DNA of 64,000 nucleotides from Gemmata palustris (GTDB lineage Bacteria; Planctomycetota; Planctomycetia; Gemmatales; Gemmataceae). How positions within the stretch are numbered: the first letter of the stretch is position 1; each line of letters opens with the position of its first letter. A program made the translations under genes and the position numbers. The notes beneath the pieces were generated by a model. The model had not been told where the DNA came from and ran no database searches. It was given only the letters and a program-made list of their open reading frames with translations. Of the stretch, positions 43,447 to 59,798 are shown in pieces. The stretch spans positions 682,001-746,000 of the forward strand of contig NZ_JAGKQQ010000002.1 of assembly GCF_017939745.1 (NCBI RefSeq), read 5' to 3'.

Positions 43447-43466
43447 AAGTGGTCACGCGACCACTT
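43447..43466. promoter_or_regulatory. Dispersed palindrome, site 1
   Basis: AAGTGGTCACGCGACCACTT, four bases downstream of the stop of the minus-strand winged-helix gene. It carries the same A variant at position 9 as site 2 on the other side of that gene. Confidence 0.75.
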
Positions 43467-43469
43467 TTA

Positions 43470-43892
43470 TCACGGGGATGGTAACGCTGGGTTGGTGCTC
43501 GCTGCGACTGCCAACGGCTTCCGGCACTTCAAAACCTGTGTGGCGATCGTCCCGTGATGCACCCACACGTAAACACTCGCCGCCCGCCGCCGCTCGTCCC
43601 CCTTCCGAATGCACACGATCAGTCGGAGTGACTCGAACTCGCGGAGCCAATTGGAAATCGTTCCCTGATGTACGCCCGCGAGCACGCCGGCTTGTGTCCC
43701 GCTGAGCAGGAACTGCCCGCCCCAGGCACGCCCCGAAAGTTCGTAGCACAACGCGGCCAGCCGCCGCTTCTTGTTGAGCAGCCCCAATCCCGGAATCGAT
43801 TGCGTGAACTCTGGGAGCGGCTCAACATCGAGCCGCTCCCAGATCTCCACGAGCTTCGGCGGTACCGGTCGGGTTGTACGCTCGGTCGGCAC
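43470..43892 (-). CDS. Winged-helix DNA-binding protein bracketed by the palindrome
   Basis: A 140-residue protein from a GTG at 43892. Residues about 55-120 form a winged helix: FLLSGTQAGVLAGVHQGTIS as the helix-turn-helix, then ESLRLIVCIRKG and ASVYVWV as wing strands. Similar domains are found at the C-termini of phage primase or initiator proteins and in some MarR-like regulators. Copies of the dispersed palindrome lie 3 bases after the stop and 18 bases before the start, so it is one of two candidate proteins for binding that site. Confidence 0.7.
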   Translation of the reverse strand: MPTERTTRPVPPKLVEIWERLDVEPLPEFTQSIPGLGLLNKKRRLAALCYELSGRAWGGQFLLSGTQAGVLAGVHQGTISNWLREFESLRLIVCIRKGDERRRAASVYVWVHHGTIATQVLKCRKPLAVAASTNPALPSP

Positions 43893-43910
43893 GGGACACC
43901 TCGTATGGGG

Positions 43911-43930
43911 GAGTGGTCACGCGACCACTT
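43911..43930. promoter_or_regulatory. Dispersed palindrome, site 2
   Basis: GAGTGGTCACGCGACCACTT, 18 bases upstream of the winged-helix gene start and overlapping the stop region of the 631-residue protein gene upstream on the same strand. Confidence 0.75.
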
Positions 43931-45824
43931 ACGGGTACACGACCGGGTTCCCGCCCAGGATGCCGCCGGAGCCGGAACCGAGACCGGGGAGGCCACCGCT
44001 GCCCGGATCTTGTTGTAGACCAGAACCCGGCACGGCCGGTCTCGCTCCGCCACTGAGCGGGTCTTGTGGCTGGCCCCCGCCGGTGAGTATCCCGTCGCCC
44101 GTGAACGGCGTCTGCCCCCGGTTGACGGGCGCCCCGGCCCACAGGATCTCGTCTGAGAAGTTCCGGGTCGTGCTCAGCGACACGTCCTGCAGTTGCGGGG
44201 ACAGGAACGGCGGGATCGGGGCCGCGAGCGAGACGATTGTCGGGTCGATAACGCCATAACTGTAGTGTCCGGCGACTTTGTGGACCGGCATCACCCCGTC
44301 CGGGGACAGTTCGACGTTGGACACCGTCACCCCGCCGCGAAGGGGCACGAAGTTCGGGTCTTTTGACTCGAACGTGGGGAGCACCGGCGGGGCACCGGTT
44401 CGCATCGCCACCCAATCGACTTCGAGCGTCATGGCCCCGCCGTGTACCGTCACGGCTTTGGCCTTCTTCCCGTTCGGCCCGACGCCAGTCGCGGGCATCA
44501 TCACCACGCCCGTATCGAAGGCGTAGGACGAGGTGAGCTCGTAGGTTTCGTAGGGGGCCGTGTCGGTGTACGCGGTGGCCCCGCGGGTCGATAACGTGGT
44601 GTCACCAATGGTCAACTCGAACCCGGCGGCCCGGGTTTCGGCGTCCGCCAGCATCTCCCGGTTGGGTTGGTCGCCACCCTTCGCGGACCGCAACTCGGTC
44701 ACGATCACTTCGGCCGCGGCACACGGGTCTTTAAACACCGCGGCGACCAGTGCCGTGAGCCGCTTGCGGATCGGCGGGGCGAGCCCGGGGCGCCCCTCCT
44801 GGATGCCGGGCATCTGCCCGACCGACGGCATGACGGCCGGACCGGGTGGCTTGCCCAACGCCGCAATTGCGGCCCCCGCCGCCGCACCTATGAGCCCGGC
44901 CGTGAACCCGCCGACGGGCGAGAGTTGTGCTTGCATCGCGACCTGCACGGACGGCGACTTGAGGTCTTCGCTGAACGAGCCCCACGCCATTGGCACGCTC
45001 TCGAACCGTTCGCTCCGAAGCTTGCTGTAACACATCGACATCGCGACGTTGAGCAGATCCTTGCGGCTCGTCCCCTTCTGGCCGGTGAGCGTCAGTTCGA
45101 CCCGCCCGGTCCGCCGGAACCCGGGCTTCGGGCACTCGATCGTAAACCGCCCGTTCCAGTCGAGGGCCGGGAACGGGGGCATGTAAGCCTGCTCCATGTC
45201 GTCGAACGAGAACGCCAGCTCGGTCCCGTTCGGGTGCAACGTGTACTTCGCGGATTTGCGCTTGTAGTCCGGGAGAATGGGCGGCGTCACTTGGTCACGG
45301 AAGTTGTCCGCGGACTGGAGCAAATCGCCCCGGACGACCAGCTTCCCGTGCGTGCTGATGTGCGAGTAGTTGAGCTCGTCGAACGATTCGCTCTGCTCCC
45401 ATCGCAGACTCACTACCGGATCAGTCAGGGCGTTGTTTCCGCAGTCGTAAGTCGAGATTTTGTACCCCACGTCGATGAAGAACGTGCCGGGGTTGATTTC
45501 GGTGATCGTGGCCGGCTGGATCGGGTTCGGCCCCAGATCTGCGTCGGGCCGCCCGTCGATCGGTTGCCACTGGATGATCGGGACGCCGTTCACTTCGTAG
45601 TAGATCGACCGCCGGGGCATGTTCAGCATGTGGCGGATGTCGGCCAGCAACAGGGCCGAGTTCGTCGGGATGGTGCTCTGAAGTGACGCGATGCCCCGAG
45701 CCCGGATCGTGCTCGTATTGCAGACCACGTCGGTGCCGCCGACCGAGTCACGCTTGGTGTCGAACTGTACCGAAGCGCTTTTGAGGAGATGGAACCGGAT
45801 GCCGTTAACGGTGAGTACGCTCAT
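43929..45824 (-). CDS. Large element protein, possible tail or baseplate-type structural protein
   Basis: A 631-residue protein starting MSVLTVNGIRFHLLKSASVQF. The first ~280 residues are beta-rich (KISTYDCGNNALTDPVVSLRW, NGRFTIECPKPGFRRTGRVEL). A small hydrophobic Gly/Ala segment is near 310-330 (GGFTAGLIGAAAGAAIAAL), and the C-terminus after about 575 is Gly/Pro-rich. There is no signal peptide and no enzyme motif. It is divergent from the tail-tube-like gene with palindromes between, so it may be part of the same structure. The family is not recognised. Confidence 0.6.
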   Translation of the reverse strand: MSVLTVNGIRFHLLKSASVQFDTKRDSVGGTDVVCNTSTIRARGIASLQSTIPTNSALLLADIRHMLNMPRRSIYYEVNGVPIIQWQPIDGRPDADLGPNPIQPATITEINPGTFFIDVGYKISTYDCGNNALTDPVVSLRWEQSESFDELNYSHISTHGKLVVRGDLLQSADNFRDQVTPPILPDYKRKSAKYTLHPNGTELAFSFDDMEQAYMPPFPALDWNGRFTIECPKPGFRRTGRVELTLTGQKGTSRKDLLNVAMSMCYSKLRSERFESVPMAWGSFSEDLKSPSVQVAMQAQLSPVGGFTAGLIGAAAGAAIAALGKPPGPAVMPSVGQMPGIQEGRPGLAPPIRKRLTALVAAVFKDPCAAAEVIVTELRSAKGGDQPNREMLADAETRAAGFELTIGDTTLSTRGATAYTDTAPYETYELTSSYAFDTGVVMMPATGVGPNGKKAKAVTVHGGAMTLEVDWVAMRTGAPPVLPTFESKDPNFVPLRGGVTVSNVELSPDGVMPVHKVAGHYSYGVIDPTIVSLAAPIPPFLSPQLQDVSLSTTRNFSDEILWAGAPVNRGQTPFTGDGILTGGGQPQDPLSGGARPAVPGSGLQQDPGSGGLPGLGSGSGGILGGNPVVYP

Positions 45825-45863
45825 GAGATATAGTACGCGACCGTCTGCGTACTATATCTCATG
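45822..45863. promoter_or_regulatory. 17-bp inverted repeat overlapping the start codon of the 631-residue gene
   Basis: The arms 45822-45838 and 45847-45863 are exact reverse complements with an 8-base centre. The left arm contains the ATG of the minus-strand gene, and the right arm contains a mirror ATG on the plus strand with no reading frame behind it. It could be an operator or an mRNA hairpin hiding the start codon. Confidence 0.65.
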
Positions 45864-45869
45864 GCGACC

Positions 45870-45889
45870 GAGTGGTCGCGCGACCACTT
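45870..45889. promoter_or_regulatory. Dispersed palindrome, site 3
   Basis: GAGTGGTCGCGCGACCACTT in the divergent promoter region between the 631-residue gene and the tail-tube-like gene, ending 13 bases before the latter's ATG. Confidence 0.8.
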
Positions 45890-45902
45890 TTGAGGGGCGA
45901 TC

Positions 45903-46412
45903 ATGGCCGTTGACGGGTACTGCGTGAACGGTGCGGCCCGGGTCCAGGTCGGGACCGGGAGCGCTGGGGCGTTGGAGTTGCTGGGGTACACCGACCGCGG
46001 TGTGCAGATCGACATCACCGAGTTGAAGAAGGACATCGTCACGGACATCTCGGGTGAAGCCCCGCAGGACGTGCAGGATATGAGCATGACGGCCCGAATC
46101 GTGGTCAACCTGATCGCGATGGACCGTGCCGTGTTCAAGAAGCTGCAAGGGCGTGGCGACCGGACCACGCCCGGGTTGGCGAACACGGCCGGTCTGGTGC
46201 TCGGTGCCGGCGGGTACCTGTTCCGCGTCGGGATCGAGTCGCCGTTCGACGAACCGTGGTCGTTCAACAAGTGCTTCATCCGCCCCGGGTACGGCACGAC
46301 GCTCGCGAGTGCCGCCAACCCGTTCCGCATCGAGTTCCAGGCGATCCCGTGGGCGGCTGCCACCGCCGTTACCAACAAGGACACGCCGCTCTGGACCCGA
46401 TCCCTTTCCTGA
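45903..46412 (+). CDS. Phage tail-tube-like protein
   Basis: A 169-residue protein, all beta except one helix. The layout is that of tail-tube proteins: LLGYTDRGVQIDITELKKDIVTD, then SMTARIVVNLIAMDRAVFKKL, then a strand region ending RIEFQAIPWAAA. The pattern of a reference plane, a changed-sequence strand pair and a helix with DRAVFKKL is typical. The next two genes fit the tail gene order chaperone then tape measure. I infer the family by pattern, not by a search. Confidence 0.6.
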   Translation: MAVDGYCVNGAARVQVGTGSAGALELLGYTDRGVQIDITELKKDIVTDISGEAPQDVQDMSMTARIVVNLIAMDRAVFKKLQGRGDRTTPGLANTAGLVLGAGGYLFRVGIESPFDEPWSFNKCFIRPGYGTTLASAANPFRIEFQAIPWAAATAVTNKDTPLWTRSLS

Positions 46413-46423
46413 GTTTAATCCCC

Positions 46424-46894
46424 ATGCTCAACTGGATTCGCCGCCTGTGGCCCCGGGGCCATAGGACGGTCTACTGCTTCCACGACGGTACCAAGACGCG
46501 GTACGCCGATCCGCTCGTCATCGCCCGGGAAGTCGAGCGGCTGTGCCCCGAGTACACGACGCTGCTCGGGTTCCTGGCGGAAGATCACAGTTTCGCGGGC
46601 GACTCCGGCCCGGTGGTGGACGACCTGCGACAGCAACAGAAGGACACGCTGGCCAAACTCGTGAAGGTGGCCCGTGAGGTATTCGGGGTTCAGAAGTCGC
46701 CCGACCCACTCATGGGGTTCGTGCTCACCGAAGCGGCGAGCTTCAAGTTGCTCGGGGACTGGCTCGTGTGGATGAGCACCGCCGCGGAAGACGCCCGCCC
46801 TTTCTCGAACTGGCCGTCGCGGGCCTCACCTTCGATGCCGCCCGACTCCCCTACCGGCTCCTCTGCGGGCTCTGGTTCTATCGAGAAGACGTAG
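46424..46894 (+). CDS. Tail assembly chaperone-like protein, unshifted product (gpG-like)
   Basis: A 156-residue zero-frame product starting 11 bases after the tail-tube-like stop (MLNWIRRLWPRGHRTVYCF). The first ~127 residues are helical. After the slippery site at 46798 the zero frame turns into a Ser/Pro-rich tail (SNWPSRASPSMPPDSPTGSS) with poor codon use, and stops at 46894. Tail chaperones in siphophages and myophages are commonly made in short and frameshifted forms. Confidence 0.7.
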   Translation: MLNWIRRLWPRGHRTVYCFHDGTKTRYADPLVIAREVERLCPEYTTLLGFLAEDHSFAGDSGPVVDDLRQQQKDTLAKLVKVAREVFGVQKSPDPLMGFVLTEAASFKLLGDWLVWMSTAAEDARPFSNWPSRASPSMPPDSPTGSSAGSGSIEKT

Positions 46895-46965
46895 AGCGGC
46901 AGTACGAGAAGCGGGCGAACAAGATCGCCGGCCGGATCGCGACCGAAATTGCCCGGGCACTGTGA
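46424..46965 (+). CDS. Tail assembly chaperone-like protein, -1 frameshift product (gpGT-like)
   Basis: Reading the zero frame to the TTC at 46802-46804 and slipping back one base gives about 180 residues. The -1 part continues LELAVAGLTFDAARLPYRLL and ends with RIATEIARAL, rich in G/C third positions and hydrophobic residues, as expected for real coding sequence. The stop at 46965 is nine bases before the tape-measure-like gene. The gene position between tube and tape measure is the classical place for such a frameshift. No independent ribosome site is seen for the -1 part. Confidence 0.7.
46798..46804 (+). other. -1 slippery heptamer C CCT TTC
   Basis: In the zero frame the codons are CGC CCT TTC. 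Slipping one base gives CCC TTT, so both tRNAs (Pro, Phe) can re-pair, satisfying X-XXY-YYZ. It lies exactly where the coding signal passes from the zero to the -1 frame. Confidence 0.75.
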
Positions 46966-46974
46966 GGTAACGAA

Positions 46975-47976
46975 ATGGCCGCGACTCTCGACGACGTGCT
47001 GGACGAGCTGAAGAAGCAGGTCAAGTTGGCGACCGTCGCCAACACGATCGCGGCCGGCACGCAGCAACTCATGACGCAGGCGATGCCCGCCGGTCTCGTG
47101 GCCACGCCCCAAGCGGCACCGGCACAACCGCCCGCCGGTACTCCTTTACGTCAACCGCAACCCGGAACCGCCCCGGCCCCGCACCACAACCCCCAACAGC
47201 AGAACCAGCAGCAACAGGGCGGTCAAGGGCAGCAGCAGAACACCACCCGAAAGCGGCGGGGCAAGAAGTCCTCTCAGAGCTTCTGGAGCCGCGTGAGGGG
47301 CGGGATCGGCAACAAGATCAAGGGCGGGCGGCTGGGGCGAGCGTACAAGGGCGGGCAGAAGGGCGTCGGTTCGTTCCTCGGGGGCAAGGGGCCGTCCGGT
47401 ATGGGCGGGCTCGGCGGGGTGTCCGGTGCCGCGGCCCGACTCGCAGGCCCGGTCGCGGTTGTGGCCGGCGTTGTTCAGGGGTTGAATGAGTTTAGGAAGG
47501 CGATCGTGCAGGCCACCGACGAGCAGCTCTCCGCGGCACGGAAGCTCCGCGACGTGAGCGGCCAGATGGATGTGATTTTTGCCCAGGCGGACATCAAGGA
47601 CGCGATGCGGGGCATGCGGCAGGGCCGAGCACAGGCGGCCAGCACGGAGGCACTGTCGAACGCGGACCAGCGTCGCAAGGACGCAATGGAGCCGTTGGAA
47701 AATGCCGTCACGAACATCAAGAACGATGTGCTCGCGAAGCTGAACGACGCGATCATTCCCGCGATCGAAGTGTGTGCCGACATCGCCAAGTTCATCCAGC
47801 GGAATTGGCCGTGGTCGGTCAAAGAGGAAGAGAAGAAGAAAGAGGAACTCGGCTTGGCTGGCTCCATGCAAGCCGCTGAAGCAGAAGCGGCCCGAATTGC
47901 TGCGGAAGGGCGGCGGCTGATGGATCGGGCCAGAGCCGCGGGCGGAACATCGCGTCCAGGCGGGCGACTCCTCTAA
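46975..47976 (+). CDS. Tape-measure-like protein (short)
   Basis: A 333-residue protein: a helical N-terminus (LDDVLDELKKQVKLATVANTI), a Gln/Pro/Gly-rich linker with basic run (RKRRGKK), a Gly-rich region, one membrane-like helix (AARLAGPVAVVAGVVQGL), and a long helical C-terminus (EFRKAIVQATDEQLSAARKL). The sequence and gene order fit a tape-measure protein, but it is short, implying a stubby tail. GAGG lies seven bases before the ATG. The stop overlaps the convergent next gene by four bases. Confidence 0.55.
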   Translation: MAATLDDVLDELKKQVKLATVANTIAAGTQQLMTQAMPAGLVATPQAAPAQPPAGTPLRQPQPGTAPAPHHNPQQQNQQQQGGQGQQQNTTRKRRGKKSSQSFWSRVRGGIGNKIKGGRLGRAYKGGQKGVGSFLGGKGPSGMGGLGGVSGAAARLAGPVAVVAGVVQGLNEFRKAIVQATDEQLSAARKLRDVSGQMDVIFAQADIKDAMRGMRQGRAQAASTEALSNADQRRKDAMEPLENAVTNIKNDVLAKLNDAIIPAIEVCADIAKFIQRNWPWSVKEEEKKKEELGLAGSMQAAEAEAARIAAEGRRLMDRARAAGGTSRPGGRLL

Positions 47977-48464
47977 CCCTTCAACACGCCGCGGATCTTT
48001 TTGGTTGTGGCCCTCGCTTCGGCAGTGGAGTCAAACGAGCCGATCGCGAACCGGCCGACGGTGAAACCGTCCTCGATAGTGCCCGCCGCCTCTTCAGCTC
48101 GTGCCGCGTCCTTGCACAGATACACCACAACTCGCGTTCCGGCCCGTCCGTCGCCGATCCAGAAGTGTGCGGCAGGGCGGTCGGGTCGATCGACCACACT
48201 TGCTGTCGCGAATTCGACCGGCACGCCTTGCTGACGCAGATGTGCGGCGAGATCCTTGTGGCTGGCCCATTCCCTGTCTGTAGTGGGCACCCGTTTGCTG
48301 TGCGTCGCATCGCGGCCCGAGGTGGCGACGATCACGACCACTACGGTAGCGACCGAAAGAACCAGTAACGCCACCATTCCCAGAACGGCGGTCCGTCGGG
48401 CCTTCCGTTGCCGCGCGAAGCGGCGTCGCTCGATCAACTCCTCGTACTCTTCGTCCGCGTCCAC
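47973..48464 (-). CDS. Single-pass membrane protein with SPOR-like C-terminal domain
   Basis: The GTG at 48464 follows AGGAGGG by seven bases, giving 163 residues. A charged N-terminal segment, one membrane helix (AVLGMVALLVLSVATVVVVIV), then a small domain (FWIGDGRAGTRVVVYLCKDA; FAIGSFDSTAEARATTKKIR) resembling SPOR/sporulation-type repeats. It might anchor element proteins at the envelope. It is divergent from the DUF1580-like gene with palindrome site 4 upstream. Confidence 0.6.
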   Translation of the reverse strand: MDADEEYEELIERRRFARQRKARRTAVLGMVALLVLSVATVVVVIVATSGRDATHSKRVPTTDREWASHKDLAAHLRQQGVPVEFATASVVDRPDRPAAHFWIGDGRAGTRVVVYLCKDAARAEEAAGTIEDGFTVGRFAIGSFDSTAEARATTKKIRGVLKG

Positions 48465-48567
48465 TCTGAGCCCTCCTGAGATGCCCACAGTGTCTCCATT
48501 CGCCCGCCGATCTGCAATCTGAACGCCTTTTCACACCTCTGGCGATTGTCATTTCGCTCCTTAGAGC

Positions 48568-48587
48568 AAGTGGTCGCGCGACCACTC
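48568..48587. promoter_or_regulatory. Dispersed palindrome, site 4
   Basis: AAGTGGTCGCGCGACCACTC in the divergent gap between the SPOR-like gene (minus) and the DUF1580-like gene (plus). Confidence 0.75.
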
Positions 48588-48763
48588 TGTTGGCATCACA
48601 CCTGTCTCTCGGCGTGACGGCCAACGTGCCGTGTGTGGCACTGCGTGCCGTGTGTGTCAAACGTGTTGAAGAATTTACAGATTTCTACAGTCGGGAGCGA
48701 ATTGGCGGTGCGTATCATTCAGTATACGTGCGTACAAGACAATCGCCAACTCGGAGCCTTGCA

Positions 48764-49096
48764 ATGGGTACCGTGACACTCGCCAATCGCGTGCTGCAGG
48801 AGTCACTGTTGTCGCTGAGTGCGGCAGCTCGACTGTTTCCGCCCTTGCGGAAAAACTCAGCCGTCAAATCCTCCACGATCTGGCGGTGGGTCAGGGAAGG
48901 CGTAGCGACTCCTGGCGGGCGGGTGAAGCTCGAGGCGGTCCGGTGTGGCTGCTCGTGGATCACGTCGCGTGAGGCCGTAGAGCGGTTCGTCGCAGCCCAA
49001 AACCAATCCGCAAAGACGGCGGACTCCGTTGTGCAGGTCGCTGATACGAATGCCGATCGCGAGGCGGCCGAAGTCGCTTCGTTGCTCGGGATGTGA
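48764..49096 (+). CDS. DUF1580-like helix-turn-helix protein
   Basis: A 110-residue protein with GGAG seven bases upstream. The pattern SLSAAARLFPPLRKNSAV, SSTIWRWVREGV and WITSREAVERFVAAQNQ is that of DUF1580 proteins, which are frequent in planctomycete mobile elements and resemble excisionase-like winged helices. A hairpin terminator follows at 49107. Confidence 0.75.
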   Translation: MGTVTLANRVLQESLLSLSAAARLFPPLRKNSAVKSSTIWRWVREGVATPGGRVKLEAVRCGCSWITSREAVERFVAAQNQSAKTADSVVQVADTNADREAAEVASLLGM

Positions 49097-49106
49097 TCGA
49101 AAAAGC

Positions 49107-49138: not shown

Positions 49139-49180
49139 AATGTTCCCGGAGCCGACCAAAGCACCAAGGAAGTCAATTTC

Positions 49181-50353
49181 ATGTTACGCTCGCACCTCCG
49201 TGGTCGGAGGCATTTTCCAGATCCGTTCGCAAGATTTGGTCTCTTCGCCGGCCCGCCCGAGAACACCACGTCGAAAAGGTGTGTTCCTTCGTACCCCGGC
49301 GGTGCCGATGCGGTCGTCGCCGCGGCGTTCGCGTCGCGGCACGGACGTAGGCTCATTGAACTGTACAACGGCCGCCACTCATACCGTCACCCAGAACACG
49401 CGATGCTGGCACTGGCCCGAGGGCTGGCGTTCTGGGCGGGCAGCGACGAACGGCTGCTGGAGCTGCTCGTCATGAGGTCGCCTCTGGCTGGCGTCACTTC
49501 GATGGCCGCAAAGTGGTTCTCGGGTCGGCGATCGCGACATTATGGGCTGGAACGGGTCGTCCGGCCAGCGATCGCATCTCGCAGGTCATTTTGGGCCGCG
49601 CGTAACTTTCGGTCATCGACTCGTACCCCGCCCGAATCCTGTGGTGTTAACGCGAGCGGCTCGCACGCGGCTCAGGCGACGAGTCCCTCTTTAAAAGGGC
49701 AAAAAGAAAGCTGCAAGCCCTGCTGGTTCGAGCGAGCCGTGAGGCTTGCCGGATCAGAAGAGTGGCCCGCCGAATTGCTGAAACTTAGAGCGGCGACGCC
49801 GGCAGTTACGGCACGCCGTCGGATGGTCGCGGAGATCTGCCGCCATCTCGCAGACAGTACCCCTGGGGCCGAGTTCACAATCGGCTTGAAGCAACTCGCC
49901 GAAGCGTTGGGCGTGTGCGAGCGGACCGCCTGTGGAGACCGCCTCGCACTGGAAAAGCTCGGCATTATCAAACGTCTGGAAACCGGATCAAATCTCACGG
50001 GGCGTGTTTCACGCTTTGTGTGGATCGGGTTGAGCAGTCGAGATCAAGAGATCACGCCTACCACTAATCAGGAACCCCATGAACAACACGAGCCCACCCG
50101 AAGTAGCCAACGTGCCGCTGGCGGATATCGATTTTGGCCCCGCGAAGAAGGGCCGGGCCGCTCTCAACGCGGAGGCCGTGGAGCGGTATGCCGAGACCGA
50201 ATCGGAGTGGTCGAACTCGAAGCCGATCGACCTGTTCTACGGCCACGTTCCCGACGGCGGGCGGTACTACTTTGCGGGCGACGGCTGGCACCGTGGAGAA
50301 GCCATGCTCAAGCTGAAACGCCAAACGATCAAGGCGACCATTACCCGCTGTGA
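49181..50353 (+). CDS. Primase-associated helix-bundle domain plus winged helix
   Basis: A 390-residue frame from an ATG with AAGGAAG upstream. Residues about 45-130 match the helix-bundle domain found in NrS-1-type and other phage primase-polymerases (LIELYNGRHSYRHPEHAML, LARGLAFWAGSDERLLELL, then AKWFSGRRSRHYGLERVV). Residues about 215-290 form a winged helix (FTIGLKQLAEALGVCERTA; LEKLGIIKRLETGS). The polymerase part itself is missing. The last ~90 residues overlap the ParB-like gene by 275 bases and look like shadow sequence, so the true C-terminus probably ends near 50070 and a frameshift is possible. Confidence 0.6.
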   Translation: MLRSHLRGRRHFPDPFARFGLFAGPPENTTSKRCVPSYPGGADAVVAAAFASRHGRRLIELYNGRHSYRHPEHAMLALARGLAFWAGSDERLLELLVMRSPLAGVTSMAAKWFSGRRSRHYGLERVVRPAIASRRSFWAARNFRSSTRTPPESCGVNASGSHAAQATSPSLKGQKESCKPCWFERAVRLAGSEEWPAELLKLRAATPAVTARRRMVAEICRHLADSTPGAEFTIGLKQLAEALGVCERTACGDRLALEKLGIIKRLETGSNLTGRVSRFVWIGLSSRDQEITPTTNQEPHEQHEPTRSSQRAAGGYRFWPREEGPGRSQRGGRGAVCRDRIGVVELEADRPVLRPRSRRRAVLLCGRRLAPWRSHAQAETPNDQGDHYPL

Positions 50354-51374
50354 GTCCGCCGCAGAAGCCGAACGGCAGGCCACGCTGTTCGCCTTGTCAG
50401 GGCGTGCGAACCGGGTCCACGGCGTGCCCCGCTCCAACGAAGACAAGCGGGCTGCGATTCGTAACGCCCTTCTGATGCGTGAGAACGAGGGCATGAGCGA
50501 CCGGCGGATCGCGGACCTGTGCGGCGTGAGCCACGTCATCGTTGGGAGCGTCCGCCATGAGATGACTTCGGCCGGGGAGCTCATCGGCAAAGCGTCGGCC
50601 GAAAACCCGGGCCGCGGTTACAAGGAGGGAGCAAACATCCGCGGTGGGTGCCACCGCGAGAGTAACGGCCGAATCGTCGTAACCGCCGCGACCGAAGTTC
50701 GGGAGCGGGAACAAAAGAGGACAGAATTGTCCGCTGGTAATTTAACCAGCGATGTGGACTCGAATCCGGTGACCGCGAGCCAAGCCGCTCCATCTGCTGG
50801 AGAAGTTCCCGCTCCTCAACCGGTACCCGAGACAGAGAAGCTCGGTACCTCCCGGGACGTTCAGGATCGGTACGGCCGTATCGTTCCTGAGTCACTGGCG
50901 AAGGTGTTCGCGGCCGCTTCTGACGCCCGCCGCGAGTGGTCGAGGAAGATCCGCGAGCTACGTGAGTTGCAGCAGTCTCTTCGCAAAGAGCACTTCGGCC
51001 TGATCCCGGATGAAGGGACGCTCCAGAGTATCGAAAAGACAATCGACAGTTTACGCAGCTTGGTCATCAACAGCCTGCCCGAGTCCGTGTGCCCGTCGGT
51101 AGGTCAGGGCGGGCAGCACGACGCCGAGACCGTGCTGAACAACCTCAAACAGTGCCACCTGTGCAACAGCCGAAAGTGGCTAACGAGCGATCAGATCGAC
51201 CGCCACGACAAGCTGCATAACGTCAAGGATCGCTGCACTCGGTGGGCGTCCGAACCGACCAAGCCCGCGACGAAAGTAACGGCCACCGAACGCAGTGAGC
51301 AAGAGGAACCTGCGAAGGCGAAGGAAGACGATGGGAATTACGACTACAAGTTGGGAACGGGGGCCGGACTATGA
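50079..51374 (+). CDS. ParB-like DNA-binding protein
   Basis: A 431-residue protein. Residues about 10-95 form a ParB/sulfiredoxin-type domain (VPLADIDFGPAKKGRAALN, IDLFYGHVPDGGRYYFAGD, WHRGEAML). A helix-turn-helix follows near 130-170 (MSDRRIADLCGVSHVIVGSV). A low-complexity linker leads to a coiled coil (ARREWSRKIRELRELQQSL) and a C-terminal zinc-finger-like CHLCNSRKWLTSDQIDRHDK with more Cys. Its DNA site may be the dispersed palindrome. It overlaps the next gene by four bases. Confidence 0.85.
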   Translation: MNNTSPPEVANVPLADIDFGPAKKGRAALNAEAVERYAETESEWSNSKPIDLFYGHVPDGGRYYFAGDGWHRGEAMLKLKRQTIKATITRCESAAEAERQATLFALSGRANRVHGVPRSNEDKRAAIRNALLMRENEGMSDRRIADLCGVSHVIVGSVRHEMTSAGELIGKASAENPGRGYKEGANIRGGCHRESNGRIVVTAATEVREREQKRTELSAGNLTSDVDSNPVTASQAAPSAGEVPAPQPVPETEKLGTSRDVQDRYGRIVPESLAKVFAAASDARREWSRKIRELRELQQSLRKEHFGLIPDEGTLQSIEKTIDSLRSLVINSLPESVCPSVGQGGQHDAETVLNNLKQCHLCNSRKWLTSDQIDRHDKLHNVKDRCTRWASEPTKPATKVTATERSEQEEPAKAKEDDGNYDYKLGTGAGL

Positions 51375-51861: not shown

Positions 51862-52662
51862 CTAATCGCTTTCGGAATACACGACGACCTTTGCTGTTCG
51901 TCGAATCACGTTGAGTAAGGAATCGAGTTCCTCAGCTCGGTAGAACTCGGCGTGCTTCTCGCGAAGCAATTTCTCCACGATTTGAGGGGTTTCCGTCTCA
52001 CCTGGAGGGAATTCCCCGACGATGACCAGTTGATTACCGACCGTGTGGATCAACTCGCTTTCCAGTTGATAGCGGCCTGCACGAGAGATCAGCTCAGTTG
52101 CCGTGTCGCGGGGAAATTGAACCGGTTGAATGAGCGTCAGCTTGCCATTCTGATACCCGTAAGGCAACATCAGGCTGCTTCGGATCTTCGGCAAATGCAC
52201 CTCAACATCGTGCATCACCAGCGGCTTGAATTCGGGCTTCGAGAACTCCTCTTCGAGAACCTCTTTCAGCCCACGTTTGCGGTTTGGAGCGGGCTGCGGC
52301 TCCACGAGTTCCTCAAACAACTGAAAAAATTGGACCCCCGGGACGCTCACCGACACCTTACGCGGGTCCGTGATGAGTAGATCGTTAGCTTCTTGACCAA
52401 TGAATTTGCGTAGATCCGCAACATCGCGGAAGCTCTTCGACGCTTGTCGGATGCGTGTCTCAAAGGAGGACACGAGCCGAGTGTACTGTTTCAGCGAGAT
52501 GTGGTTCTTGCCGAAAAACCTGTGAATTCGGCCAACGCGACGATTCGTTTTGACGTCAAAATAACCCGTGGCAGGGCAATACAGGAGCACCCCGACATTG
52601 GCGCCCTCAAGACGCCCGAAATCGGGGCAGTATTGGATCACGGAGTAGTAGCCGGGAATCAC
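51862..52662 (-). CDS. DUF3037-like partner of HipA-family kinase
   Basis: A 266-residue protein (GTG start) beginning MIPGYYSVIQYCPDFGRLEG and continuing ANVGVLLYCPATGYFDVK, the hallmark of DUF3037. The function is unknown, but the family is regularly encoded with a small HipA-like kinase, as here: the start overlaps the stop of the kinase gene by four bases. It may act as antitoxin or adaptor. Confidence 0.8.
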   Translation of the reverse strand: MIPGYYSVIQYCPDFGRLEGANVGVLLYCPATGYFDVKTNRRVGRIHRFFGKNHISLKQYTRLVSSFETRIRQASKSFRDVADLRKFIGQEANDLLITDPRKVSVSVPGVQFFQLFEELVEPQPAPNRKRGLKEVLEEEFSKPEFKPLVMHDVEVHLPKIRSSLMLPYGYQNGKLTLIQPVQFPRDTATELISRAGRYQLESELIHTVGNQLVIVGEFPPGETETPQIVEKLLREKHAEFYRAEELDSLLNVIRRTAKVVVYSESD

Positions 52663-53507
52663 GGGTTATCCCCCGACCGTTGTTGGTCATCAAAGAGATC
52701 CGCTGCCGGGAAATCGACACGAATAATTCGCTCAAGCAAATGTATACGACCGTATATCATGTCGCCCAAAGCATTTCGATGCCCGTTGGCCAACCACGCC
52801 TCGGGCACTCGCTCGATGATCGCATCGATTTGTGCCCTCGAACATGATTGTACTGCACGAACCGCTTGAAGGGCGTGTTCGCGACGGGCCAACCCAGCAA
52901 ATTCAGGGAAGTAGCCGTACAGTGTGTCTGCGGTCGCCGCGCGTCTGAGGTAGGCGGGAGTCAAATCCGCTAGGCACTTGAAACAGCACCCGTGGTCGAG
53001 AGACGTTAGGTAGTATTGATCATCGAAATCGGCAGCACGTTCAAGAAACACGTTTCTCGCGGCACGCCACTCGGGGGCGGTTTCTGTCCTCGGTCGAAAG
53101 CGGTCACAGTTCAGTGTCCAGGTATCAAAGACAACAAGGCGTGCCAAGTCGATCGGGTTGAGTACGCGGGTAAGCACTGACCGGCTACCGGACCAGTCCA
53201 TCCCGTCAAGTTTTCGAGTAATAAAGCCGTGGCCGGGCACAAACTCATTTCCGTCTGCGAGTTCGATGGGGGCATGAAGCGGTATTTCGATTACTGCGTA
53301 TTCTGGTGTGCGGAGCCCGACGATACGGGCTAGCTCGATCCCCACCAGTTCGCACGCTAAATCGTGAGGACAGCCTTTTTGGGACAGCACCTTCAAAAAT
53401 CCCTCACCAACATCTGTTTCAACAACGACTGGTAGGGAATTACTGGATAGCCTGCGTTTTTGATAGCGAAGGGCGGTCGGCGACCGCGAGGGAGTGCTTG
53501 ATGACAT
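52659..53507 (-). CDS. HipA-family kinase-like protein
   Basis: A 282-residue protein with kinase features of the HipA_2 type: FLKVLSQKG with the ATP-binding Lys, DTWTLNCDRF carrying the catalytic Asn-x-Asp-Arg, and SLDHGCCF as the metal-binding Asp motif. Typical HipA (about 440 residues) has an N-terminal domain that is absent here. HipA kinases phosphorylate translation factors or other proteins. It is the first gene of a two-gene unit with the DUF3037-like protein. Confidence 0.8.
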   Translation of the reverse strand: MSSSTPSRSPTALRYQKRRLSSNSLPVVVETDVGEGFLKVLSQKGCPHDLACELVGIELARIVGLRTPEYAVIEIPLHAPIELADGNEFVPGHGFITRKLDGMDWSGSRSVLTRVLNPIDLARLVVFDTWTLNCDRFRPRTETAPEWRAARNVFLERAADFDDQYYLTSLDHGCCFKCLADLTPAYLRRAATADTLYGYFPEFAGLARREHALQAVRAVQSCSRAQIDAIIERVPEAWLANGHRNALGDMIYGRIHLLERIIRVDFPAADLFDDQQRSGDNP

Positions 53508-55657: not shown

Positions 55658-55690
55658 GGCTCATTTTCTGGACAGTCCAGAAAATGAGCC
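55658..55690. repeat. Variable-core hairpin, unit B
   Basis: The arms 55658-55673 and 55675-55690 are exact reverse complements around one central base. The flanks match those of the unit at 55805, but the stem sequence is different. Confidence 0.75.
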
Positions 55691-55804
55691 CGATCAGCCC
55701 CATCCCCGTCGTAGCAGCGTAGCGAAGCCACGTCGTCGCGGCTATTTCGTGTCTATCCCGAAAACGTCGCCGAACCGCCCCTTACCCCACCCCCGTCGCT
55801 CACG

Positions 55805-55843
55805 CCCGACTGTTTCTTGCGTTGAACGCAAGAAACAGTCGGG
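55805..55843. repeat. Variable-core hairpin, unit C
   Basis: The arms 55805-55823 and 55825-55843 are exact reverse complements around one central base. The left flank ends in GTCGCTCACG and the right flank continues GATCGGCCCCATCCCC, parallel to unit B. Confidence 0.75.
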
Positions 55844-55927
55844 ATCGGCCCCATCCCCACTGTCGCAGCGGGACGGAATTTCTAGGGACTGTCGCAAATG
55901 CTTCAGTGGAGCACCACCTGCCCCAGC

Positions 55928-55943
55928 GTGGTCGCGTGACTAC
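55928..55943. promoter_or_regulatory. Dispersed palindrome, degenerate site 5
   Basis: GTGGTCGCGTGACTAC differs from the palindrome core at two positions. It overlaps the stop region of the minus-strand sigma-like gene. Confidence 0.4.
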
Positions 55944-56491
55944 AGGCCGAGTGTGGCCATTGCTCGCTCGCGGGCGGTTTTGACCTGATGAATGGAAAGC
56001 CCAACCAGTTTCCCAATTTTACTCGGCTCGTCGGGTGTACCGTCCAAACCAAACGACCTCTCAACGACGATGCGTTCCACGACGGACAGTTCGCCGACCC
56101 ACTCGCTGACGCCTGGGGGCAACTCAACGGGCTCGCGGGCCGGAACGAGAACGAGCGTGTCGTCGCCGTCCTCGTCCACTTGAACCGGCTGCCGATCAAG
56201 TTGGCGTTTCTGCTGACCCGCTTCCCGAAAGATCGCTCGCTGGACCGCGGTCCAAGCGTAGGTGCGGAAGATCGCGCCGCCGTTCGGGGACCACGCCAGT
56301 ACGCACCGCCACAGCGTGTACAACCCGACACTCGCCACGTCATCCGGTTCGACGCCCGCGGGCATCTTCACCTTCCAGACCTGTCGCCACACTTGAACCT
56401 TGTATCTGGTCACCAGTTGGTCGGCCGCGTCACGGTCGCCGGCCTGGGCACGCAGAGCCAGTTCCGCATCGGATGGTTGGGGAGCACGCAT
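55940..56491 (-). CDS. Sigma-70-like factor of the element
   Basis: A 183-residue protein with sigma region 2-like sequence (ADQLVTRYKVQVWRQVWKV; DDVASVGLYTLWRCVLAW; FRTYAWTAVQRAIFREAG) and a C-terminal region 4-like HTH (EPSKIGKLVGLSIHQVKTAR). It resembles ECF or phage-type sigma factors. Palindrome site 6 lies about 97 bases upstream of its ATG, so it may drive element genes under the control of the site-binding protein. Confidence 0.75.
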   Translation of the reverse strand: MRAPQPSDAELALRAQAGDRDAADQLVTRYKVQVWRQVWKVKMPAGVEPDDVASVGLYTLWRCVLAWSPNGGAIFRTYAWTAVQRAIFREAGQQKRQLDRQPVQVDEDGDDTLVLVPAREPVELPPGVSEWVGELSVVERIVVERSFGLDGTPDEPSKIGKLVGLSIHQVKTARERAMATLGL

Positions 56492-56587
56492 GGGATGAGC
56501 CGGGGAGGTGGGGTGGCTGTGGGAGCCATTTTACACGGCGTGTGGACTGGCGTTCAATGCGAGCCGAGTGGAAATGTGGGAGCCGGG

Positions 56588-56607
56588 AAGTGGTCGCGCG
56601 ACCACTT
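56588..56607. promoter_or_regulatory. Dispersed palindrome, site 6
   Basis: A perfect AAGTGGTCGCGCGACCACTT between the excisionase-like gene stop (56685) and the sigma-like gene start (56491), both on the minus strand. Confidence 0.8.
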
Positions 56608-56684
56608 GGTCGAAAAAGAGGAGGAGGTCGAGGGAGGGTATTCGGAAAGAGAAGTGACGGACTCATGTGCGTCGAACTGGTGGT

Positions 56685-56897
56685 TCAGATGTTCGGTAGG
56701 CCGCGGGACGTGAGGAGCTTGTTAACGTCTGACTTCATGTAGTACGTCATCTTCTTCGTGGGCTTGTAGCCCGTGATCTCGCCGTCCACCGTCCAGCGGC
56801 GGATTGTGTTCCGCTGCACGCCGAACAGCCGGGCCACTTTGCGAATGTCCATCCAGCGGTCGCCTTTGGGTAGCGGGATCAGGGGTAATGTCGGCAT
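56685..56897 (-). CDS. xis: Excisionase-like helix-turn-helix protein
   Basis: The ATG at 56897 has GGAGGG seven bases upstream. The 70-residue product is a MerR-type winged helix (MDIRKVARLFGVQRNTIRRW, then GYKPTKKMTYYMKSDVNKLL), matching small excisionases/AlpA-like proteins. It could direct excision by either integrase. It lies upstream of the sigma-like gene on the same strand. The gene symbol is by type only. Confidence 0.7.
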   Translation of the reverse strand: MPTLPLIPLPKGDRWMDIRKVARLFGVQRNTIRRWTVDGEITGYKPTKKMTYYMKSDVNKLLTSRGLPNI

Positions 56898-57132
56898 GTC
56901 GAACCCTCCAACGTGGTAACAGGAAACGAACGCCCCCGGGGCCACTCACTCGGTGACCCGGGCGGGCAAGAAGGTAACGCGCAGGACCGCGAAAAGGGAA
57001 GGCGCGTTGAAGTGATGGGTACAGGGGTGGGTCGGGTGAGGTGGGGATAACCCGAAAAGTGAACTCGCTCAGGCCGAGCAACGCCAGCGAAGAGTAAGGG
57101 CCGTCACGTCGTTTTGGCCCCAGTGCAGGACG

Positions 57133-57339
57133 TCACTTCTTTTCTGCCTCAACACGATCAAGGAACTCGAGGATGGCGGTGAGCCCAACGGCCGCACGGT
57201 CGGGGGTAACCCGTTGCGATTTGAGGAACCGCTGGAGCCGCTCTTCGGTTTCGTCGTCGAGCGTGATGAAGATCGTGTGCCGCTTCTTCTTCTCGGTCGC
57301 GGACGCTTTCGAGCTTGGTTTTTTTGCCATGCTGACCAT
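57133..57339 (-). CDS. Ribbon-helix-helix-like small protein
   Basis: A 68-residue protein starting at 57339 with GGAG about seven bases upstream. A basic Lys/Ser-rich N-terminus is followed by HTIFITLDDETEERLQRFL and AVGLTAILEFLDRVEAEKK, a strand-helix-helix pattern like CopG/RHH repressors. It lies 111 bases before the small plus-strand gene cluster and may repress it. Confidence 0.6.
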   Translation of the reverse strand: MVSMAKKPSSKASATEKKKRHTIFITLDDETEERLQRFLKSQRVTPDRAAVGLTAILEFLDRVEAEKK

Positions 57340-57508
57340 GCTAACGCTCCATTAAAGTCTTGCCACACAAGTATTCGCACTTCGTCTAGCAAATTCAATC
57401 TACGCTGATGAGATTTCATTGCAAGCAATATTGACATGCAAGCAATTCGACATTACATTGCCACCAGTGGTGATGGTTGTTCCGGCGGTATCGAACGGAG
57501 GGCTTGAG

Positions 57509-57760
57509 ATGACCCGCAGCGAACTGGACCGCGAGTTCCTCGGCAGCGAGTGGGAGATCGGCCACAGCTACGGCTCGGAGGGGCCGGGCTGGGTGGCCGC
57601 GGTGACCCTGATCCGCCTGAACCTGGGCCGCGACCTGACCGCCCGGGAGCGGGTACTGTTCGCCGACGGGTGGCGGGCCGGGTGCCGCGACCGGGCGGCC
57701 TGGAAGGAAGACATGCGGGTGCGGGCCGACGAACTTGCCCTCGCGGACATCCCGTTCTGA
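57509..57760 (+). CDS. Small element protein, unknown function
   Basis: An 83-residue protein from the ATG at 57509 (MTRSELDREFLGSEWEIGHS). It is acidic and helical with conserved-looking LNLGRDLTARERVLFADGWR. It opens a cluster of seven very short plus-strand genes (57509-59658) with close spacing. Confidence 0.55.
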   Translation: MTRSELDREFLGSEWEIGHSYGSEGPGWVAAVTLIRLNLGRDLTARERVLFADGWRAGCRDRAAWKEDMRVRADELALADIPF

Positions 57761-57811
57761 TCCCACACCCGGACCGGGTTCACCGCCCGGTCCATTTCGA
57801 GGAATCGCCCG

Positions 57812-58153
57812 ATGACCGCGACCTACACGGACCTGCTGCCGAAGCACGAAGGCCCGCAGATGACGCTCCTCTGGAGCCCGGGCATCATCCCCGGGTGCGG
57901 GGTGGTGGAGATCCAGGGCAGGCGGGACGCGACCACCTACGCCGTGGTGGAACTGCCGACCGACTGGAACGGCCGGGCGTTCCGGCTGGAGAAAGTTTCG
58001 GGTGTAGGCACCGACGCCACGGAAGAGGTGTACTCGGTGTTCTGCTCGAGCAACGGGCGGCAGGATCGGTGCGAGTGCCGCGGGTTCACACGCTGGGGTT
58101 TTTGCAAGCACGTCGATGCGATCAACACCATCATCCAAAACCGGTGGCTCTGA
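57812..58153 (+). CDS. SWIM zinc-finger-like small protein
   Basis: A 113-residue protein with a C-terminal CECRGFTRWGFCKHVDAI motif, which fits the SWIM pattern CxC...CxH. SWIM fingers bind nucleic acid or proteins and occur in recombination-related proteins. No other domain is visible. It is the second gene of the small-gene cluster. Confidence 0.7.
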   Translation: MTATYTDLLPKHEGPQMTLLWSPGIIPGCGVVEIQGRRDATTYAVVELPTDWNGRAFRLEKVSGVGTDATEEVYSVFCSSNGRQDRCECRGFTRWGFCKHVDAINTIIQNRWL

Positions 58154-58164
58154 GGACCACGAAC

Positions 58165-58380
58165 ATGGCAGGTCGAATTCCCCGATCCAGAACCACACGC
58201 GGAACCGACGTCAGCCGCTGGCGTCGCTGGCTCCGGCAGTCGTTCGTGGCTCGGGTCCAAGACGGACGCGGCCGGATGCTGGTGAGCCCGATCGAGGCCG
58301 AGCGGCTCATCCTATCCTCGCCCGGCCGGTACACGATCCATTTTGACGACGGTGAATTCCTCGCCGTCCCGACCAACTGA
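58165..58380 (+). CDS. Small basic element protein
   Basis: A 71-residue protein from the ATG at 58165, with GAGG upstream. The first half is very basic (RSRTTRGTDVSRWRRWLRQS), the second half is a small alpha/beta unit (YTIHFDDGEFLAV). Possible nucleic-acid binding; the family is not recognised. Confidence 0.5.
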   Translation: MAGRIPRSRTTRGTDVSRWRRWLRQSFVARVQDGRGRMLVSPIEAERLILSSPGRYTIHFDDGEFLAVPTN

Positions 58381-58411
58381 CCGAACCCTTAACCTATTCC
58401 GAGGACCGATC

Positions 58412-58624
58412 ATGAAGAACGCCACAACAACCAAGGCGACCGTGCAAAGTGGTCGCGGGACCACCCAGCGACCGAACCCGAAGACCAGCCCGAAGCGGCC
58501 CGTGATTGGGGTGGTGTTTATCTGCCCCATGTGCGGCGGCGACGCCACCGTCACGGGTACGGGGCCGAACCGCGAGTTCACCTGTCTCGACTGCACCCGG
58601 TTCACGATCGCCACGGGCGACTGA
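58412..58624 (+). CDS. Small zinc-ribbon-like protein
   Basis: A 70-residue protein with a Thr/Lys-rich N-terminus and a zinc-ribbon pair (CPMCGG and, about 18 residues later, CLDC). It probably binds one zinc. The N-terminal coding region contains a one-mismatch copy of the dispersed palindrome. Confidence 0.6.
   Translation: MKNATTTKATVQSGRGTTQRPNPKTSPKRPVIGVVFICPMCGGDATVTGTGPNREFTCLDCTRFTIATGD
58447..58466. promoter_or_regulatory. Dispersed palindrome, degenerate site 8 in coding sequence
   Basis: AAGTGGTCGCGGGACCACCC: the left arm is exact, and the right arm differs at the centre and at the end. It lies inside the zinc-ribbon gene. Confidence 0.35.
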
Positions 58625-58676
58625 ATCGCACGGCCCCGGCTCCATCCAACTTCCCCCACTCACAAGGAACTTTGCC

Positions 58677-58973
58677 ATGACGACCGAACCGGTCGCGGGG
58701 GCACCCACGCCCGTACCTACCACAACGCCGGACTACGCGAACCTGATCGCGGCCCTGAAGTCGTTCGACGCGGGCGACATTAAGCAGGCCGCCACGGACA
58801 TGATCGAGGGCCTCCAGTGCCTCATCGATCGTGGCTCAATGGGGCCGGAAGACCTCTGGTACAAGGTGGACCGCATCGCCGAGACGCTACGTTTCGCGTG
58901 GATGCTGGAGTTGGGACCGGAGCAGGCGAACGCGATCATCGACCCGCTCAACCGCAACGGGGGCCGGAGATGA
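58677..58973 (+). CDS. Small helical element protein
   Basis: A 98-residue protein from the ATG at 58677; an AAGGAA lies about ten bases upstream. A Pro/Thr-rich N-terminus is followed by helices (YANLIAALKSFDAGDIKQAA, DLWYKVDRIAETLRFAWML). No family is recognised. The stop overlaps the next start (ATGA). Confidence 0.5.
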   Translation: MTTEPVAGAPTPVPTTTPDYANLIAALKSFDAGDIKQAATDMIEGLQCLIDRGSMGPEDLWYKVDRIAETLRFAWMLELGPEQANAIIDPLNRNGGRR

Positions 58974-59248
58974 AACCCAAAGGCAAGGGGACGAACCCGC
59001 TGAAGCTGACGCCGGTCGGGTGCGAGGAAGCGCTACGCACGCTGAAACCCGACCGCCTCTGGTGGCTCGTCAACAACGGGGTCAACGCTCTCGGTGACTC
59101 ACTGGAGAACATGGGCCACGAGAACGCGGAACTGACCGAAATCGAGAACCTGCACACGGACCTACTGGCCGTCGCCGAACTGGTCCGGGTCATCTGGATG
59201 CTCCGCGATCCGCGTCAGGCGACCCGTTCCGGGAGAAATTGGGACTGA
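58970..59248 (+). CDS. Small helical element protein
   Basis: A 92-residue protein (MKPKGKGTNPLKLTPVGCEE; RLWWLVNNGVNALGDSLEN) translated by overlap with the preceding gene. Its helical second half (IENLHTDLLAVAELVRVIWM) resembles the end of the preceding protein, so the two may be diverged relatives by duplication. Function unknown. Confidence 0.5.
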   Translation: MKPKGKGTNPLKLTPVGCEEALRTLKPDRLWWLVNNGVNALGDSLENMGHENAELTEIENLHTDLLAVAELVRVIWMLRDPRQATRSGRNWD

Positions 59249-59286
59249 ACCGACTCCCTCACGCAACACCAAACCAAGAGCTCATC

Positions 59287-59658
59287 ATGGTCACGATTCT
59301 GATGAACCCGACCACGCCCAACGCCTTTGCCTCGTTCTACTCGCTCTCCCCAACCGAGCGGGTAGCCGCCGCGGTTCGGCTCGTCGCCGTGCTGAAGCGG
59401 GAACGCCGCCGGGTCCAGAAGCTCCACTCCAACGCCATCAAACGCGACATCGTGTTCGGCTGCCAGGGCGGGGAGACGGACGACATCCACTGCCACCTGC
59501 TCACCCTCACCGAGTGGGTCATGTGGCTCGAGAGACGCTACGGGTTCACGCCCGTCGAACCTCCCGGTCCACTCCTTACCCACCTCCGATCGGAACGTCG
59601 GGAACAGATCGGGCGAGACGAGCGGCCGAAGGTCGAACGCAGGCCGGGCCGGTTCTGA
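59287..59658 (+). CDS. Small element protein, last of the cluster
   Basis: A 123-residue protein from the ATG at 59287. It is helical (ASFYSLSPTERVAAAVRLVA) with a basic segment (KRERRRVQKLHSN) and a Cys/His-containing turn (DDIHCHLLTLTEWVMWLERR). Unknown function. It ends 120 bases before palindrome site 7. Confidence 0.5.
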   Translation: MVTILMNPTTPNAFASFYSLSPTERVAAAVRLVAVLKRERRRVQKLHSNAIKRDIVFGCQGGETDDIHCHLLTLTEWVMWLERRYGFTPVEPPGPLLTHLRSERREQIGRDERPKVERRPGRF

Positions 59659-59778
59659 AGCAGTGCCGAAGCGATGGGTCGGATAGCGGACTCCGAATGG
59701 CCTCGGAGCGACCCATTCCAGCTCGGTCCGAATTCGCACGGCCTGCTCGGTAAAATTCCGTTGGAGACATGGTTCCAA

Positions 59779-59798
59779 AAGTGGTCGCGCGACCACTT
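59779..59798. promoter_or_regulatory. Dispersed palindrome, site 7
   Basis: A perfect AAGTGGTCGCGCGACCACTT, 125 bases upstream of integrase 2 and 120 bases after the last small gene. Confidence 0.8.

Follow-up and report, generated by a model that had tools for sequence, protein, structure and literature searches.

A 64,000-nt stretch of the 9.23-Mb genome of Gemmata palustris (C2:682001-746000; hereafter the window, whose first nucleotide is position 1) contains a 25.07-kb island along which a 20-bp palindrome recurs at gene borders. The island is bounded by 45-bp exact repeats lying 25,068 bp apart, one of them formed by the 3' end of a tRNA-Arg gene that adjoins a tyrosine integrase gene. 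These features mark the island as a mobile element inserted at a tRNA-Arg gene, termed element A (Table 1). Seven matches to the palindrome with ≤3 mismatches are present in the window, all of them confined to element A, against a mean of 0.01 and a maximum of 1 in 100 dinucleotide shuffles. Outside the element, the window holds no copy with ≤5 mismatches. An initial annotation of this DNA had described a repeated palindrome restricted to the island, together with degenerate copies, and both points are upheld, the degenerate copies carrying six mismatches (55926-55945) and three (58447). Its placement of the six better copies between genes agrees with the six of seven sites that are non-coding by our gene calls; the seventh, at 58447, lies inside a small called open reading frame (ORF).

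Table 1. Palindrome copies, borders and genes of element A (window coordinates).
Feature	Position	Strand	Remarks
Attachment (att) repeat, left	37711..37755	+	3' end of tRNA-Arg(TCG) 37679-37753; 45-bp exact repeat of 62779-62823
Tyrosine integrase	37870..39156	+	Pfam Phage_integrase 9.2e-11; homologues in B, G008; adjoins tRNA
Palindrome copy	43447..43466		1 mismatch to consensus; 4 nt beyond stop codon of 43470-43892(-)
Small protein (earlier winged-helix candidate)	43470..43892	-	Homologues in A, B, G008, weakly G013
Palindrome copy	43911..43930		2 mismatches; overlaps stop codon of 43929-45824(-)
Conserved module (631-, 169-, 156-, 333-aa proteins)	43929..47976		Common to element A and G002 prophage
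Palindrome copy	45870..45889		1 mismatch; divergent intergenic region
Palindrome copy	48568..48587		1 mismatch; divergent region, upstream of DUF1580, primase-like and ParB-like genes
ParB/KorB-fold protein (predicted)	50079..51374	+	Foldseek: sulfiredoxin, Noc, ParB, KorB; homologue in 11/11 palindrome elements
Degenerate palindrome copy	55926..55945		6 mismatches; 3' end of sigma-like gene
Sigma-factor-like protein	55940..56491	-	Pfam Sigma70_r2 1.3e-6; PHROG 351 3e-14; homologue in 11/11 elements
Palindrome copy	56588..56607		Perfect 20-bp palindrome; 97 nt upstream of sigma-like gene
Excisionase/MerR-like HTH_17 protein	56685..56897	-	Pfam HTH_17 8.5e-8; adjoins palindrome 56588
Palindrome copy	58447..58466		3 mismatches; within small called ORF
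Palindrome copy	59779..59798		Perfect 20-bp palindrome; upstream of second integrase gene
Second integrase	59924..61036	+	Pfam 1.1e-21
Att repeat, right	62779..62823	+	45-bp exact repeat of 37711-37755

Across the whole genome, the pattern RRGTGGTCNCGNGACCACYY occurs at 19 places with ≤2 mismatches, 12 of them exact and seven with one or two mismatches. The exact occurrences fall in two regions only, seven in element A and five in C1:1630012-1642290; three of the inexact ones lie in this second region (C1:1630012-1643195, eight in total) and four are isolated. The isolated matches are within chance, since 10 places match a reversed control pattern when as many mismatches are allowed. The motif is thus concentrated in elements; an equal density across the chromosome, which the initial annotation had named as speaking against its proposal, is not what is seen. 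A search of the genome and of related elements, also suggested there, yields element B, inserted in the same genome at another tRNA-Arg (CCG) between copies of a 53-bp att repeat ~17.9 kb apart, with eight palindrome sites at ≤3 mismatches and genes homologous to those of element A. A tract of 3,951 bp is 100% identical in A (window 43710-47660) and B (C1); its borders lie inside genes, and identity in the adjoining 50-bp steps drops to about 50-94%. Recent copying, gene conversion and an assembly artefact are the alternatives for its origin.

The pattern AGTGGTCNCGNGACCACT is present in three of 149 genomes including its own, all of the same genus (10, 11, and 5 copies), and its reversed control has zero copies among the same 149. 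The two further genomes of the genus, G002 and G008, contain elements with ~50 and 5 copies, the count for G002 resting on a looser site definition than the pattern. The G002 element, inserted at a third tRNA-Arg (ACG), spans 50.2 kb from one 48-bp att repeat to the other, encodes a terminase large subunit, portal (PHROG 113, 1603 bits), DnaN, helicases, sigma factor, and integrase, and is the same as the IMG/VR viral contig IMGVR_UViG_2836862175_000004, as judged with four 60-base probes. It is a complete-looking prophage, and its palindromes run across replication, packaging, and other genes. The sole GenBank phage match to its portal is one Ochrobactrum phage (two accessions), at 25% identity over 18%. 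The sequence CTACCATAA occurs five times in this prophage (C1:3636370, 3643550, 3659510, 3661890, and 3669555) and is absent from 29.7 kb of neighbouring DNA. All five occurrences lie on the + strand, follow a palindrome or a degenerate copy of it, and precede a start codon by 12-53 nt. The sequence may be a -10 box of the phage, perhaps one that serves leaderless mRNAs.

One of the five G008 copies of AGTGGTCNCGNGACCACT sits in a CRISPR spacer, and hosts have therefore probably met such elements as invaders. The array (G008 C1:3368019-3377761, L062) has 113 repeats, and spacer 96 of the 110 parsed comprises the whole palindrome plus flanks, with a match of ≤23 nt to the elements seen in this analysis. 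Elsewhere in G008, an ORF that looks by eye like a transposase (C1:8884430-8885542) splits the homologue of the 631-aa gene. Single palindrome copies were found in five of six IMG/VR contigs and both of two GTDB records, within the stretch returned. Single exact 20-bp copies occur in unrelated genomes, a Carboxylicivirga (L096), where the copy adjoins an ORF reading like an integrase, and a gammaproteobacterial metagenome-assembled genome (L097).

A de novo scan for repeated inverted half-sites identified variants of the palindrome, bringing the total to five spellings across 11 elements, with a central GCGC common to all. Besides the GTGGTC arms of A, B, G002, and G008, these are CTGGTC-GCGC-GACCAG in G005 and, mixed with GTGGTC, in G006; CTTGTC-GCGC-GACAAG in a G013 element; TCGCCC-GCGC-GGGCGA in a second G013 element and in G009; and GTGTCCG-GCGC-CGGACAC in two G028 elements (G028a and G028b), the last with 50 exact copies in the G028 genome and none in 94 other genomes searched. 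The G005 element is split over two contigs, which share 77 bp at their overlapping ends. A further G005 contig, C247, one of three very short contigs (3.5-6.6 kb) taken for the scan, bears just one TCGCCC-arm palindrome, at a distance of 1.1 kb from its ParB-like match. As a control, 20 stretches of 20 kb were picked arbitrarily from eight genomes; only one gave any cluster (three copies, score 8.7), and none exceeded a score of 10; the three-copy clusters of G010 C9 and G061 likewise score <10. Seven regions with relatives of the 631-aa protein and no full-length ParB-like gene have none of these palindromes. Three of the seven (G026a, G026b, and G010) give weak ParB-like matches, and G050, also among them, has other GC-rich repeats (score 11.3) that were left out of the count, as were the repeated palindromes of G031 and G056, whose spacing suggests CRISPR repeats in the former and an array of hairpins in the latter.

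The sites are placed preferentially at gene borders. Coding and non-coding assignments derive from genes called by a codon-usage script, and the resulting fractions are approximate because the caller missed genes, among them 48590 and 49181 in A and, in G005, the homologue of the 631-aa protein. Enrichment in non-coding DNA reaches p<0.01 in eight of ten elements, G028b standing outside the test set: 35 of 50 sites in G002 (non-coding fraction 0.15, p=3e-18; the other 15 inside called genes), 38 of 44 in G028a (0.37, p=2.7e-11), 12 of 20 in the second G013 element (0.11, p=1.6e-7), and, each at p<0.01, G009 6/9, G013 12/21, A 6/7, B 7/8, and G008 5/5; G005 (8/10, p=0.098) and G006 (3/6, p=0.077) stay above the 0.05 level. 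In G002, 20 of the 50 sites lie ≤6 nt from a stop codon (random mean 0.74) and often overlap it, and the following start is commonly 12-24 nt further along; palindromes also stand between divergent or convergent genes and within coding sequence. Along part of G028a, successive genes of either orientation carry palindromes on both sides. The sites of A, B, and G008 keep their positions, and their footprint is conserved, with 170 of 182 motif columns identical (93%) vs 741 of 1,099 flank columns (67%) over nine pairs, the two A/B pairs from the identical tract being excluded. The geometry is equally strict: exact TGGTC/GACCA arms lie 4 bp apart in 37 of 41 pairs in G002, 8/8 in A, 8/8 in B, 5/6 in G008, and 4/4 in G005, as do the arms proper to G013 in 15/15, and the sequence of the centre is nearly invariant. 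Even spacing between sites, considered as a nucleoid-type signal, was rejected: G002 is no more even than random (coefficient of variation 0.83; 12% of random sets as even), and among ten elements only G013 is more even (1.6%).

The closest parallel is found in phage phiC31. The same scan, run on 41.0 of its 41.5 kb, recovers 14 exact copies of TACTCACGTGAGTA and a fifteenth with one mismatch, which we take to be the conserved inverted repeats (CIRs) bound by repressor c; the phiC31 record labels gene c 'repressor of lytic genes'. Fourteen of the 15 are intergenic, and seven lie 7-26 nt after a stop codon. The sites described here resemble the CIRs in repeating a perfect palindrome through early as well as late genes, in having a fixed core and one genome-wide spelling, and in lying mostly between genes, near stop codons or promoters. 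They differ from the CIRs in their centre, which is CACGTG in phiC31, in their number (~50 in G002 vs 15), and in the share located in coding DNA (15/50 in G002 vs 1/15). No homologue of the phiC31 repressor was detected by blastp at E ≤1 among the called proteins of the 11 elements. A second parallel is provided by the stoperators of Cluster A mycobacteriophages (L5, Bxb1), reported as 20-30 genome-wide sites, many away from promoters, that have related yet distinct consensus sequences in related phages and are asymmetric and oriented with transcription (PMC6550527), and as being bound by a monomer (PMC9283540). The likeness lies in the many dispersed sites and the distinct spellings among relatives, and the difference in the palindromic symmetry of the sites here. 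Phage R4, which is reported to have stoperators (PMC10276819), has no palindrome cluster in our scan, as expected from their asymmetry, and its gp29, annotated as similar to L5 gp71, has no meaningful homologue in the elements (best E 0.19).

A single reading of these sequences accommodates the prophage context, the position of the sites between genes, the conserved footprint, and the precedent of phiC31. The palindromes are probably binding sites of a dimeric, element-encoded DNA-binding protein, forming a prophage-wide operator array of the phiC31 kind, so that the phage regulon operator proposed in the initial annotation is the best supported of its readings. The array is best read as working like the CIRs; membership in any repressor family is not claimed. 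We infer both that a protein binds the palindromes and that its effect is repressive. The dimer would dock at promoter regions and gene borders, and one protein would hold the whole integrated element silent, blocking the promoter at promoter-proximal sites and probably stopping or slowing RNA polymerase at the many sites within operons, in a manner that can be likened to the action of the CIRs and of the L5 stoperators.

Which protein would do so can be approached through shared gene content. Single-linkage clustering by blastp (E ≤0.01) across the 11 elements gives two families with members in all of them, ParB-like and sigma-like; integrases are linked in nine, and the 43470 and HTH_17 proteins were undetected in some. 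The six elements found by the motif or the 631-aa protein (A, B, G002, G005, G008, and G013) all carry both universal proteins. The initial annotation had proposed two binders, of which the ParB-like one retains its standing; the 43470 protein, with no Pfam or PHROG match at E 0.1, was rejected as sole binder, since no homologue was found in G002, the element with the most sites. The ParB-like protein, 50079-51374, matches no Pfam family above cut-off. Its structure model, with a mean pLDDT of 59 and confidence limited to about residues 10-170, suggests a ParB/Srx N-domain followed by a helix-turn-helix; its best Foldseek match is sulfiredoxin, and Noc, ParB, and KorB follow at E 1.5e-5 to 7e-4, with modest TM-scores of 0.31-0.48 by target. 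All six full-length ParB-like matches (E<1e-100) are in palindrome-bearing elements, five of the six having built the profile. Of three phage records with a ParB-like homologue, MW202545 (L202, L209; 57 kb, from spring water) has eight dispersed copies of a 17-bp palindrome, TACTAGTC(A/T)GACTAGTA, and the two others have no palindrome cluster above a score of 8.2.

Plasmid RK2 has about 12 KorB operators (O_B) and a ParA partner. The likeness to RK2 lies in palindromic sites and in the ParB-family fold predicted for the candidate binder (Foldseek KorB 8qa9/8qa8); RK2 differs in having KorA, the present elements in their up to ~50 sites and in the absence of a PF13614 ParA from those of five genomes. 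KorB is reported to silence over long range (PMC11790492). A ParB/KorB-type DNA clamp acting without ParA, loaded at up to ~50 gene-end palindromes and silencing the whole prophage, with new immunity groups arising by arm changes around the fixed GCGC centre, is a tentative extension that we consider rather doubtful.

Several observations weigh against an operator array bound by this protein. Complementarity extends past the palindrome core into the flanks of GTGTCC-arm sites, which covary out to +8 (G028a p<0.001, G028b p=0.011) where a plain dimer site predicts none, although the phiC31 repeats behave alike. The presence of the ParB-like protein in 11/11 elements is partly by construction, because its own profile found five of them, and the sigma-like protein is just as universal. 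From the 31 match rows of that profile, 17 regions were taken besides the known elements, with G014, G011, G089, and one G067 region left out; among weak ParB-like regions, such palindromes occur in only four of the 16 taken for the test (4/18 with G026a and G026b). None of four further IMG/VR loci with ParB-like relatives carries them (best four copies, score 12.6), nor was a palindrome cluster seen at 21 loci scanned over ~2-4 kb only. Finally, the ParB-like protein of B is homologous to that of A in its C-terminal part only (26% over 237 aa) and yet B has the same palindrome, which argues against this protein setting the specificity. Because of its partly constructed universality, the mostly palindrome-free weak matches, and the C-terminal-only homology, the ParB/KorB-fold protein is rated, on what is a correlation, as the best candidate binder at somewhat less than an even chance.

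The alternative that the palindromes act as RNA hairpins between cistrons, in processing, stability, or termination, is unlikely. The sequence is able to form a hairpin in which an 8-bp stem closes a GCGC loop, which weakens the argument of the initial annotation that a palindrome with no loop is no terminator; its preference for a dimeric site is better served by the strict spacing, the lack of overall flank covariation in the GTGGTC spelling, and the occurrence of sites between divergent genes and within coding sequence. Many sites do follow stop codons, and the flank covariation of the GTGTCC-arm sites and that of the single position +2 in G002 (p=0.0145) are joined by weak covariation in G013 (p=0.017), as a hairpin would predict. 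The phiC31 repeats covary too (p=0.01), however, so that flank covariation does not cleanly separate the DNA and RNA readings, and in the TCGCCC-arm elements it falls short of the 0.05 level (p=0.53 and 0.073). For GTGGTC arms, complementarity over +2 to +8 is at the shuffled level in G002 (p=0.62) and in A, B, and G008 together (p=0.81), and at pair 2 of G002, on the coding strand, A-C mismatches (9) exceed G-U pairs (2), a count that may be skewed by stop codons overlapping the left arm. The fixed 4-bp spacing, mostly independent outer bases, and excess of A-C over G-U therefore favour a protein dimer on DNA, and a hairpin was rejected for the GTGGTC spelling, the covariation at +2 in G002 notwithstanding.

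Slightly less probable still are centromere-like sites, the other suggestion of the initial annotation, by which parS sites of a ParABS-like system would partition an excised, plasmid-like form of the element. A ParB-fold candidate is predicted, and palindromes of 14-20 bp suit ParB-type proteins. The sites are nevertheless unclustered, being spread over the whole element at gene borders, and no PF13614 ParA ATPase was found in the elements of G000, G002, G008, G013, and G028, a search that did not cover other ParA families or G005, G006, and G009; the absence from these five genomes' elements makes a centromere unlikely.

It is highly improbable that the sigma-like protein reads the palindromes as activator elements or as elements of sigma-dependent promoters: this protein has homologues in 11/11 elements and CTACCATAA follows palindromes in G002, but the gap between the two varies from about 0 to 31 nt, no more than five of the ~50 sites are followed by CTACCATAA, the sigma-like protein is also encoded in palindrome-free regions (G026a, G026b, and G010), and, to our knowledge, known sigma-promoter elements are not 20-bp palindromes. 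Recombination borders for the exchange of gene cassettes between elements are just as improbable, for although palindromes flank successive genes in part of G028a, the break points of the identical A/B tract, the one recent exchange observed, fall within genes and no closer than about 200 bp to a palindrome.

The prophage-wide operator array would place a regulatory architecture known from some actinobacterial phages (phiC31, L5-type, and R4-type) in several elements of one bacterial family. New relative to those phages are the larger number of sites per genome and the set of natural spellings, which makes specificity and immunity groups testable by arm swaps. In the titles and opening lines of abstracts that make up the Gemmata and Planctomycetes phage literature surveyed, no description of such sites or of phage regulation appears, and the array would offer a handle on lysogeny in this group. 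If the ParB-like protein is the binder, long-range ParB/KorB silencing would be extended to phages.

The gene content of element A is less clearly that of a phage. A PHROG scan of 20 of its proteins, a partial search with one protein outside it, matched no terminase large subunit, portal, or capsid, and the element may be a phage remnant or satellite. The module of 631-, 169-, 156-, and 333-aa proteins is common to A, B, G008, and G002; positions 43000-49000 of the window have no DNA match, and the 631-aa protein no protein match, among GenBank phages. Between the att repeats lie an ECF sigma factor and a Ser/Thr kinase (40325-42894) and a cytochrome P450 (61242-62453), apparently as cargo, and a DUF3037 protein next to one with a HipA-like kinase domain (51862-53507), a possible toxin or defence pair. 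The integrase gene of A contains a 16-bp palindrome, CTGGTCGCGCGACCAG, at 37956-37971, and the same CTGGTC-GCG(C/G)-GACCAG form is found within the integrase genes of G008 (8878696), G006 (7557), and B (1645849); these four may be a coding coincidence or an extra site. The divergent region adjoining palindrome 45870 also contains, at 45822-45863, a 17-bp inverted repeat with an 8-nt centre (CATGAGATATAGTACGC / GCGTACTATATCTCATG), in which -10-like sequences can be recognized by eye on both strands.

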